Origin: Curvibacter sp. AEP1-3
Lineage (GTDB): Bacteria; Pseudomonadota; Gammaproteobacteria; Burkholderiales; Burkholderiaceae_C
Length of the DNA: 64,000 nt
Direction of reading: 5' to 3'
Assembly (NCBI RefSeq): GCF_002163715.1
Contig: NZ_CP015698.1
Location: 310,001-374,000, forward strand
The position numbers and the translations under genes were made by a program. Under the pieces are notes generated by a model. That model was not told the origin of the DNA. It saw only the letters and a program-made list of their open reading frames with translations, and ran no database searches. Positions 31,647 to 37,103 of this stretch are shown piece after piece (the stretch's first letter is position 1; each line of letters starts with the position of its first letter).

Positions 31647-33842
31647 TTATTTGATAGTGACCGGAACTGTCGCCTGGCTGCTCAGACCGTTGTTGTTGGT
31701 GACTACTACTTTGAGGCTGTAGATTCCGGCAACAGGCTTGGCCCAGCTCGCGATGACGTTCATGCCACTCAATGAGAATGTCATACCCAGTGGAACTCCT
31801 GAAATGGAGATCCGGAAGGATGTAGCACTGGCATCACTGATGTTGATGCTGCTGCTTAGGGCCTTACCCACGGTGCCATTGATGGCCGCCGCGGTGATTA
31901 CCGGGCCTGCATTGGCTATTTTGACGGAGTAGACGGCTGTGCCGGTCAGCCCGGTTTTGGTGTCTTTGGCTGATACCGTGACGGAGTAAGTCCCCAGCGC
32001 GGGCGACGCCCAGGTCACCACGCCTGTGGTGTTGATGGTCATACCCGCAGGGTTGCCGCTAATGGCGTAGGTCACCGGGTTGCTGGACACGGCAGTCGCT
32101 GCAAAGGATAGGGCAACGCCGGGGCGCCCGATCACGCTTGTTGCTGTCAGGGTAGGCGCTTTGGCGCTTGCAATCGTTACGCTGTAGGTGCCTTGGCCGG
32201 TCAAACCAGTCGCAGTGTCCTTCGCTGTGATGACGGGGCTGTATGTGCCTACCAACGGCGTAGGCCAGGTGACAACACCCGCGTTGCTAATGGTCATGCC
32301 TGCTGGTCCGCCACTCAGGGTCCAGCTTACGGGGTTGGATGCATTCACCGATACGGTGAACGAAAGCGCAGTACCTACCGTTCCGCTAACGACTACCGAA
32401 GGTACGACCGGCGCAGCGCTGGCGTTGGTCCCAGTGAGGTTGTTCACCAAGCTGGTGGCATTGGGTGTCCCGAGGCCGGTAAGCTGGTCGTATCCCACCT
32501 TCGATGCACATGTGCTGCAGGTTCCATGGCTGCCCCGGGTAATGTCGGCGAAAGTGCTCGCGTAGGTGCCGGGCACAGTGGCGAGTTGGCTGTAAAGGGC
32601 AGTGTGAGGGAGGCCTAGTGCCGCTTTGGATGCCTGCGCGCGGCTCGCGTTGGCAATGGCAATCAGTCCGGCCCATTGGGGTGTCGACAGACTGGTGCCA
32701 CCCACACTCAACCAGTTCACCGTGGAGCTACCAGGCGTCATCACGGCAGTGTATTGGCCAGTGGCCGGGTCCGCGTTGAACGCCACATCTGCGACAACGC
32801 GACGGCTGGTAAATCCCATGCCCGGGACGGCATTCGATTGGTAGCCGGGCGTGGCGGAATAGGCGCTGATGCCGCCCCCGGTGCCGGACCAGCTCACTTC
32901 TGACCGTGGGCCTGTGCCGCTGTAGCTCAATGTGGTCCCGCCTACGGCCAATACATTCGGGGACACGGAAGGCCAGGAGACAGCCATGCCGGAGTCACCC
33001 GTCGCGGCGAGGTAGGTCATTTTGGGCGCGGTGAATACCGAGTCCACAGACGCAGTCCAATTGCCTTCCGCTGCGCCGAAGCTCATGGAAACAATTCCGG
33101 GCCCCATGGAGTTGGCCAGTTTGATGGCGCCCAACAAGCTGTTGAGGGAGGCGTCCGGCGCTTCGATCAAGACAATGCGCGCGAGCGGGGCGGTGGCATG
33201 CGCCCATTGCACATCGAGTGCAATTTCAGTGGCCCAGCCGGAGTTGTAAGCAGGCGCTGTCGCTGTCATGCCACCGGCGGCGGTGTTGTACACCACAGAG
33301 AATTCACAGGCAGTAGTTGATGCTGTAGCCAGCGGTAATGCTGCGGTGGGTGCTATGACTTTGGTAGCGCATGTGGGTAGCGCGAATTTCTGGTTGAACG
33401 CAGCTAACTCCGCAATCGCATTGGGGTTGTGGTACGCATTAACGATGTAGATGGTCTGTCCGGCACCCATTTGTGCGGCCTTTGCAGCGGTCACGGGTGT
33501 GCCACTGGCAGGGAGATCAGGAAGGCTGTAGGCAGCGCGTATCTGCGCAGGTGTGTAGGTTGCGGTAGTCGTTCCAGCCGCCATAGGCGTGAAAACGGGC
33601 TCTGAGTCCGGGCTGGGCACCGATTGAGAAAAAGGCGTTGCTACCTGCTCCGCAACTGCGCTGGGCAGCGTTGGCACGTCCATTTGCATGGTGACGGTGC
33701 CTGAAGCCACCTGATCGGCCGGATTGGAGCCGCCCCCACAGGCGCTGAGCATTGCAATTGCAGAAAGGCAAACTGCAGCCAATGACCACTTGATGTGGAC
33801 GCTTTGGTTTTGATAATTGCGTTGGGTTTCGAATCTCGTCAT
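31647..33842 (-). CDS. Lipoprotein S53 (sedolisin-type) serine-carboxyl protease with three Ig-like repeats
   Basis: The 731-residue protein has a lipoprotein signal with lipobox LSAC (Cys35). The S53 catalytic domain spans about 100-470: Glu206 and Asp210 in WATEIALD, oxyanion Asp283 in ATGDSG, nucleophile Ser384 in SVGGTSLSTPQWAG, and the calcium-site pattern DITRGSHG ... YDQLTGLGTPN. Three related beta-rich repeats follow (about 480-557, 564-643, 648-730), each with a PxGMT motif, as in putative Ig/cadherin-like modules. There is no room for the usual ~180-residue S53 propeptide. ATG 33842 has GGAG eight bases upstream. It is preceded by a c-di-GMP riboswitch, so its surface display probably follows the motile/sessile switch. 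Confidence 0.88.
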   Translation of the reverse strand: MTRFETQRNYQNQSVHIKWSLAAVCLSAIAMLSACGGGSNPADQVASGTVTMQMDVPTLPSAVAEQVATPFSQSVPSPDSEPVFTPMAAGTTTATYTPAQIRAAYSLPDLPASGTPVTAAKAAQMGAGQTIYIVNAYHNPNAIAELAAFNQKFALPTCATKVIAPTAALPLATASTTACEFSVVYNTAAGGMTATAPAYNSGWATEIALDVQWAHATAPLARIVLIEAPDASLNSLLGAIKLANSMGPGIVSMSFGAAEGNWTASVDSVFTAPKMTYLAATGDSGMAVSWPSVSPNVLAVGGTTLSYSGTGPRSEVSWSGTGGGISAYSATPGYQSNAVPGMGFTSRRVVADVAFNADPATGQYTAVMTPGSSTVNWLSVGGTSLSTPQWAGLIAIANASRAQASKAALGLPHTALYSQLATVPGTYASTFADITRGSHGTCSTCASKVGYDQLTGLGTPNATSLVNNLTGTNASAAPVVPSVVVSGTVGTALSFTVSVNASNPVSWTLSGGPAGMTISNAGVVTWPTPLVGTYSPVITAKDTATGLTGQGTYSVTIASAKAPTLTATSVIGRPGVALSFAATAVSSNPVTYAISGNPAGMTINTTGVVTWASPALGTYSVTVSAKDTKTGLTGTAVYSVKIANAGPVITAAAINGTVGKALSSSINISDASATSFRISISGVPLGMTFSLSGMNVIASWAKPVAGIYSLKVVVTNNNGLSSQATVPVTIK

Positions 33843-33912
33843 GGCAACTGCTCCGGTAAACAAGGGAGGGCCACAACGTTCAATGGAATGCGTGCGTAAA
33901 CATGTTCTCATT

Positions 33913-34010
33913 GGCGGCCCCGCTACCATGGCATTGCTGCTGTAGGTCGGTGGCTTTGTGTCCCCGTCTTTCAACGGGTTTACCCATAAGCACTGCCGGG
34001 CAGGCAGCAC
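33913..34010 (-). ncRNA. Cyclic-di-GMP-I (GEMM) riboswitch
   Basis: Reading the minus strand from about 33987: GGGTAAACC, then the P2 hairpin CCGTT-GAAA-GACGG with its GNRA tetraloop, then GGGGACACAAAGCCACCGAC, then a P3 hairpin (CCTAC ... GGTAG-like arms), then GCGGGGCCGCC ending at 33913. These are the conserved blocks of the GEMM-I aptamer in their usual order and spacing. An 8-bp leader hairpin (GTGCTGCC/GGCAGTGC with two wobbles) precedes the core and is included in the range. The expression platform in the following ~70 nt is uncertain; CTCC can pair with the GGAG ribosome-binding site, pointing to translational control. The protease gene begins at 33842. Confidence 0.85.
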
Positions 34011-34021
34011 TCGATCTGGTG

Positions 34022-34049
34022 ATTTTACCTTTTTTTGCGGAGTTGGCAA
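34022..34049 (-). promoter_or_regulatory. Sigma70-type promoter for riboswitch and protease
   Basis: On the minus strand the -35 element TTGCCA (34044-34049) and the -10 element TAAAAT (34022-34027) each match consensus at five of six positions, with a 16-bp spacer. Transcription would start near 34015, so the leader begins immediately before the riboswitch, separating the protease from the upstream J-domain operon. Confidence 0.65.
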
Positions 34050-37027: not shown

Positions 37028-37103
37028 TGGCTCCTCAACCTGGGCTCGAACCAGGGACCTACGGATTAACAGTCCGGCGCTCTACCGACTGAGCTATTGA
37101 GGA
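37028..37103 (-). tRNA. tRNA-Asn (anticodon GTT)
   Basis: The minus strand reads TCCTCAATAGCTCAGTCGG at the 5' end, anticodon loop CTGTTAATC with GTT, T-loop GGTTCGAGCCC, and an acceptor end GTTGAGGA-G-CCA. The 76 nt form a full cloverleaf, including an encoded CCA at 37028-37030. Confidence 0.97.

Follow-up and report, generated by a model that had tools for sequence, protein, structure and literature searches.

A c-di-GMP-I riboswitch aptamer precedes, and may control, the gene of a predicted surface S53 protease in Burkholderiales

Does c-di-GMP act through an RNA on the synthesis of a surface protease, and if so, does it turn the protease on or off? The question is raised by a locus of Curvibacter sp. 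AEP1-3 in the stretch of 64,000 nucleotides that we analyzed (positions 310,001 to 374,000 of contig NZ_CP015698.1, hereafter the window). Its minus strand carries, in this order, promoter-like hexamers, an aptamer, a 67-nt platform with a GGAG, and the ATG of a long reading frame (Table 1). The original prediction had read this leader as a promoter, a GEMM-I aptamer, and a CTCC facing the GGAG ribosome-binding site. The sequence blocks are each found where it had placed them, and the promoter is present as a match to the consensus; a scan of 371 bases gave two promoter-like sites (the other on the plus strand) against a mean of 0.4 in shuffles (sd 0.7). The covariance model RF01051 matches the aptamer over its whole length (E 2.8e-12), with a score twice the family threshold. 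At the level of sequence, the presence of a full c-di-GMP-I aptamer in front of the gene of a predicted S53 lipoprotein protease is confirmed.

Table 1. Features of the leader and of the protease gene, in positions of the window
Feature	Position	Strand	Basis
Sigma-70-like promoter TTGCCA-16-TAAAAT	34022..34049	-	10/12 consensus matches; consensus match only
c-di-GMP-I (GEMM-I) riboswitch aptamer	33910..33994	-	RF01051 72.5 bits, cut-off 35, model 1-87
Aptamer 3' strand GGGCCGC (model 77-83), proposed partner of switching strand	33914..33920	-	complementary to GUGGCCC
Putative stem H1, CAAUG (33913-33909, from aptamer C84) with CAUUG (33885-33881)	33881..33913	-	weak alone
Proposed switching strand GUGGCCCUC, conserved block	33866..33874	-	conservation across leaders
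Predicted sequestering hairpin, CGUUGUGGC with GCCAUGACG (contains start codon) and CUCC with GGAG	33837..33878	-	fold -14.9 kcal/mol, z -2.30
Shine-Dalgarno GGAG	33851..33854	-	sequence; 8 nt upstream of ATG
Predicted S53 (sedolisin/kumamolisin-type) lipoprotein protease, 731 aa, C-terminal Ig-like repeats	31647..33842	-	ORF (ATG 33842 to stop 31647), profile

The product of the gene carries a lipobox (LSAC-GGG) and S53 motifs. Searches of the 731-aa protein with Pfam and NCBIfam returned no domain at E <= 1e-3. Its assignment to S53 comes from a phmmer match to tripeptidyl-peptidase 1 (1.5e-10) and from a family profile of 41 rows, which matches kumamolisin-As at 5.5e-27, tripeptidyl-peptidase 1 at 1.1e-16, and sedolisin at about 7e-16. 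Residues E206, D210, D283, and S384 are invariant in this alignment and align with the kumamolisin-As motifs; we take these Glu, Asp, Asp, and Ser to be the S53 catalytic residues. The lipoprotein protease that had been expected downstream of the aptamer is borne out by the lipobox, the motifs, and the profile match, and we regard the protein as a predicted S53 (sedolisin) peptidase with predicted proteolytic activity. A strict lipobox pattern is found in 43 of 67 S53 rows, distant ones included, and a looser one (LTAC) in several of the remaining rows. The C-terminal third consists of predicted Ig-like repeats (PF05345 in many relatives), and relatives (the best 120 of 3976) bear public names such as 'S53 family peptidase' or 'putative Ig domain-containing protein'. 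The 50 Foldseek matches listed for the AlphaFold model (mean pLDDT 67.4, pTM 0.47) are nearly all Ig or cadherin-like repeats, so the model is uninformative on the catalytic domain, for which the sequence profiles are informative. S53 enzymes usually have a long N-terminal propeptide. In the window protein, some 50-60 residues separate the lipobox Cys from the first invariant positions of the catalytic domain, probably too few for such a propeptide, and Pfam, which missed the catalytic domain as well, gave no match to the Pro-kumamolisin propeptide. If the propeptide is indeed missing, control of synthesis would outweigh zymogen control.

The aptamer accompanies the protease gene in many relatives. 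A collection of genome contigs held 18 matching loci, of which five match the repeat region only and 13 are betaproteobacterial orthologues; RF01051 lies upstream of 12 of these 13, the one without it being from Delftia sp. PS-11 (L012). When genomes of the order were sampled, 15 of 399 matched the S53 protein, and an aptamer was found in the Curvibacter genome itself and four close relatives (L051-L054), while nine more distant S53-like loci (L055-L061, L064, L067) had none; loci L062, L063, L066, and L068 match repeats only and were left out of this test. In the family, 39 of 399 genomes matched at E <= 1e-30, giving 42 loci, 40 of them testable since L093 and L103 are cut off ahead of the leader. 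An above-threshold aptamer precedes 27 of the 40, best matched by RF01051 in 25 and by RF03167 (the GGC variant) in two (L094, L106). The 13 others all extend 648 bases or more ahead of the frame, and one of them, L085, retains a 28.1-bit remnant to RF03167 (L085:3955-4039, minus strand) and has probably lost the switch recently. The class sample (369 genomes) added one further match (L098), without aptamer. These genomes are samples of their groups, and some species occur in two collections (L006/L051, L015/L052, L004/L072). On a tree of 65 S53 rows, built without L093 and L103, presence of the aptamer requires 4 label changes, where shuffled labels need 19.6 and none of 500 shuffles came as low. 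Near-copies add to this clustering, and the tree has 25 weak branches among its 61 inner ones. The main clade comprises 42 rows, 38 with the aptamer and one more with a decayed copy. Named relatives include members of Janthinobacterium, Undibacterium, and Delftia. Judged from these sequences, the pairing of aptamer and S53 gene is old.

In the window, the upstream neighbor of the protease gene encodes a 453-aa protein without a Pfam match and the downstream one, on the opposite strand, an L-rhamnose mutarotase. A conserved partner gene was sought in the window and in L003-L015 and was rejected. Once ORFs overlapping the S53 gene itself are discounted, together with those shared only inside a genus or between a pair of species, just two protein families, both broad, are found in more than one genus: a transporter-like ORF in L004 and the Janthinobacterium loci and a chemotaxis-receptor-like ORF in L004, L014, and L015 (both by eye). 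No adhesin-like ORF common across genera was seen in these 14 loci, where ORFs were judged by eye. A tRNA gene lies about 3 kb upstream of the aptamer (37031-37103, minus strand, RF00005 68.7 bits), and tRNA matches are also present in the S53 loci L003, L070, L078, and L087.

The aptamer has the features expected of a c-di-GMP binder. In its alignment to the model it has G at position 11, AAA at 38-40, C83, and a GAAA loop (a GNRA tetraloop). In this family, the G at position 11 selects c-di-GMP over cyclic AMP-GMP, and an A-rich joining region and a conserved 3' C are characteristic of the aptamer. The c-di-GMP-I-GGC variant RF03167 belongs to the same clan, but RF01051 gives the window aptamer its best match, and this aptamer is the higher-scoring of the two c-di-GMP-I sites in its genome. 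We compared these positions in 40 of 42 leaders, leaving aside L072, a duplicate, and L085, whose aptamer is below threshold. C stands at position 83 in every one of the 40, and the loop is GAAA in 34, CGAAA in four, GUAA in one, and UAAA in one (L003); orthologous leaders, to which the original prediction had pointed for comparison, have thus largely kept both features. All 40 also have G at position 11 and AAA at 38-40, but the anchors themselves demand GG and CAAA there, so these counts show only that every row could be anchored. The RNA at 33994-33910 is on these grounds predicted to bind c-di-GMP.

How could ligand binding reach the start codon? The platform contains a 12-mer, GTGGCCCTCGCC, that recurs with at most 3 mismatches in 32 of 41 leaders (against 4.5% in base shuffles), at 26-43 nt upstream of the start codon in 31 of the 32; the remaining match, at 51 nt in L081, is probably due to chance. 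With at most one mismatch, 19 of the 41 S53 leaders contain it, and none of 63 leaders belonging to other genes. The block GUGGCCCUC is complementary both to the start codon and Shine-Dalgarno and to the aptamer's own 3' strand. In the first of these pairings it forms a hairpin, in which GUGG pairs with CCAU over the start codon and CUC with the GAG of the ribosome-binding site. CTCC (33868-33865) does face GGAG in the minimum-energy fold of the window platform, as had been proposed, with 6 of 200 shuffles equally stable. We folded 18 of the 41 leaders, picked among those with the block and including near copies (the window, L003, L069): z was negative in all 18 (mean about -2.2) and -2 or below in nine, L014, L053, and L078 were unremarkable (38-47 of 200 shuffles equally stable), and L008 folds differently. 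GCC is common ahead of ATG in the few background starts (4 of 18), so the GCC part of the hairpin is no evidence alone. An upstream ORF from the GTG of GUGGCC was rejected, since its distance to the start codon occurs in all three phases. A terminator model was also rejected for the window leader, whose minus strand has no terminator-like site. In one S53 relative, a GC-rich hairpin followed by T6 lies at L073:957-988 (plus strand), and the platform may have shifted there to transcription termination.

Between aptamer and block, many leaders have a stem of variable sequence, H1, rooted at the last C of the aptamer. In the window this is the short CAAUG/CAUUG stem, with p 0.223 against shuffles, and 14 of 40 S53 leaders reach p <= 0.05. 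Stems of score at least 5 starting at C84 are more frequent than in shuffles, being found in 28 of the 40 S53 leaders (5.8 expected) and in 8 of 12 leaders of S8 subtilase genes (1.7 expected; one of the 12, L041, is probably mis-anchored); six further sites without anchor, three of them S8, were excluded. Among the S53 and S8 stems, 26 different five-pair versions occur, and pairs 2-5 each exist in several pair types. Similar stems follow aptamers of other genes (19 of 45 leaders against 7.0 expected), hence H1 is not specific to proteases. RNAalifold gave no consensus pair on the aligned platform (27 rows); as the platform loops vary widely in length, anchored stem tests were used in its place.

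The likeliest explanation, in which we have moderate confidence, is that the riboswitch controls translation of the surface-anchored S53 protease as an OFF switch. With c-di-GMP bound, the aptamer would retain its 3' strand (positions 77-83) and last conserved C residues, leaving GUGGCCCUC free to mask the start codon and Shine-Dalgarno, and no protease would be made. When c-di-GMP is low, H1 would juxtapose GUGGCCC with the aptamer 3' strand; pairing of the two would open the aptamer and expose the ribosome-binding site. We infer the OFF direction and its action at translation from the two alternative partners of the block and from the openness of the start region in forced folds. The register that pairs GUGGCCC with positions 77-83 (GGGCYGC) is canonical at 98% over 21 distinct rows, against 10-68% in the other 14 registers. 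Within the main group there is no covariation between the two strands (permuted rows were as good in 1816 of 2000 cases); since the block scarcely varies, the register shows complementarity, not covariation. The duplex has p 0.010 against shuffles in the window, and 10 of 40 leaders have a duplex energy that beats shuffles at p<0.05; these p-values, like the others given here, treat related leaders as independent. These ten are the window clade (three), L007, L084, L091, L097, L081, in which the block is altered to GCGACCC opposite GGGUCGC, and the differently built L074 and L080. With the aptamer forced in the window leader, openness is 0.09 at the ribosome-binding site and 0.05 at the start codon, against 0.34 and 0.46 with the alternative helix forced. 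Across the related leaders this difference is modest: openness is higher in the alternative state in 30 of 41 for the Shine-Dalgarno and likewise in 30 for the start codon, and on each measure 11 of 41 tie or go in the opposite direction. In the absence of ligand, the alternative state of the window leader is the more stable (-57.0 vs -51.4 kcal/mol). As to supply of the signal, the genome has 48 GGDEF matches. Falling c-di-GMP would thereby allow synthesis of the protease, which may help cells to leave surfaces or to feed.

The opposite output, in which c-di-GMP exposes the ribosome-binding site and the protease works in the sessile state (in matrix remodeling or in capturing nutrients in the biofilm), seems unlikely to us. 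Very similar cyclic-dinucleotide aptamers with opposite outputs are known (PMC9262584), and the 11 leaders whose forced folds do not favor OFF are in its favor. Yet the dual complementarity of GUGGCCCUC, which predicts release of the start region only when the aptamer is open, speaks against it. Control might instead act on transcription or mRNA stability, for example by Rho access or premature termination, and leave the ribosome-binding site aside. The hairpin and T6 right after the aptamer of L073, seen by eye, show that platforms do change within the clade; this rival is nevertheless quite unlikely given the lack of a terminator-like site on the minus strand of the window leader and the start-region hairpin of the 18 folded leaders, L008 excepted. 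It is very improbable that the aptamer is a conserved relic that has ceased to switch the protease gene in this host. Decay does occur, as in L085, whose best match (28.1 bits) falls short of the cut-off whereas the aptamer of its sister L084 is intact (83.6 bits), but the window aptamer scores 72.5 bits, and in the three rows of the window clade both sides of pair 13-36 have changed, with U-A in place of C-G.

The OFF switch may be one case of a wider arrangement. Among 150 genomes of the family, 43 have RF01051 matches, at 71 sites. Taking as downstream gene the long ORF that starts near the aptamer (8 assigned by tblastn with the S53 protein, 49 by Pfam, and 14 by eye alone, so that some assignments may be wrong), 8 sites precede S53 and 15 precede S8 subtilase genes; serine proteases, with 23 of 71, are the largest class found, and S8 alone outnumbers every other single class seen. 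The S8 sites are L027, L028, L034, L036, L037, L039-L041, L044, L045, L049, L115, L124, L126, and L129, 14 assigned by Pfam and L124 by tblastn alone (49% identity), Pfam giving no family on its frames. A reprolysin-type metalloprotease follows one site (L127), and four sites precede related PKD-bearing proteins, that of L149 being at the reprolysin cut-off. The rest comprise 9 FliE, 4 chemotaxis receptors, 4 GGDEF proteins, and 26 others or unassigned, among them L048 with an S8 fragment as a later ORF. At the fliE sites (L125, L130, L132-L134, L136, L145, L043, L047) the aptamer lies several hundred bases ahead of the gene, identified by PF02049 in 9 of 9. The second c-di-GMP-I site of the Curvibacter genome (1896186-1896271; L002:1500-1585, minus strand), best matched by RF03167 (59.7 bits, cut-off 59), precedes a 159-aa protein, and the protein after the L143 site has a similar start (KPFGR).

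The S8 leaders lack the S53 block: the closest sequences in them differ from it by 2-5 mismatches, and many are located within the gene. In six of these leaders (L034, L036, L037, L040, L049, L126), as judged by eye, the ribosome-binding site is set within GGCCUC(G)-n-(C)GAGGC, and in the majority of the six the arm continues directly into a stem that has its root in the GCC of the aptamer. Chiefly on the basis of these S8 leaders, which have the same logic in other letters, we tentatively advance the possibility that the Burkholderiales c-di-GMP-I riboswitch chiefly controls surface and secreted proteolysis (by S53, S8, and probably metalloproteases), with a masking strand GGCCCUC or GGCCUCG that competes with a stem at the aptamer's last C. 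If true, an RNA would directly switch on surface proteolysis whenever c-di-GMP falls, a route that runs parallel to those of LapG and of C. difficile PPEP-1.

A fall in c-di-GMP is associated with the departure of bacteria from surfaces, for which surface proteases are one of the known means. Under the OFF model, c-di-GMP would act directly on protease synthesis, without a receptor protein, across a large bacterial group. The leaders provide a precise two-state model, and the protease genes behind this RNA are candidate dispersal or feeding enzymes in many genera. We found no report of a c-di-GMP-I riboswitch paired with an S53 protease in open-access full text, which misses most subscription papers. 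A survey of RNA-controlled regulons lists for GEMM 21 polysaccharide-degradation genes and 114 of unknown function, and a search of its main text found no mention of a protease or peptidase (PMC3766115), nor did one of a review of former orphan riboswitches (PMC7266159). As far as the open-access literature can tell, three things are new: the S53 protease as a target, the conservation of that target in Burkholderiales, and the platform that the leaders share.

Known systems share parts of this design. In LapD-LapG, low c-di-GMP also leads to cell-surface proteolysis, but a protein receptor acts there on the activity of the enzyme, whereas here an RNA would act on its synthesis. The Vc2 riboswitch of Vibrio cholerae is called translational, with repression by masking of the ribosome-binding site (PMC9262584), as predicted for the window leader; it differs in its gene, and the masking strand of the window extends over the start codon as well and has a further complement in the 3' strand of the aptamer. 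By analogy, the closest precedent is zmpI/PPEP-1 (CD2830) of Clostridioides difficile. There, a type I riboswitch, Cdi1_12, is associated with repression of the protease at high c-di-GMP, whereby adhesins stay on (PMC4591827), so the principle of a c-di-GMP-repressed protease was already known from this system. Both have a c-di-GMP-I riboswitch ahead of a secreted protease, with repression at high c-di-GMP, predicted in our case. However, PPEP-1 is a zinc metalloprotease controlled at transcription, with a neighboring adhesin substrate under a type II switch, while the window has an S53 serine protease lipoprotein with predicted translational control and no adhesin identified beside the gene.
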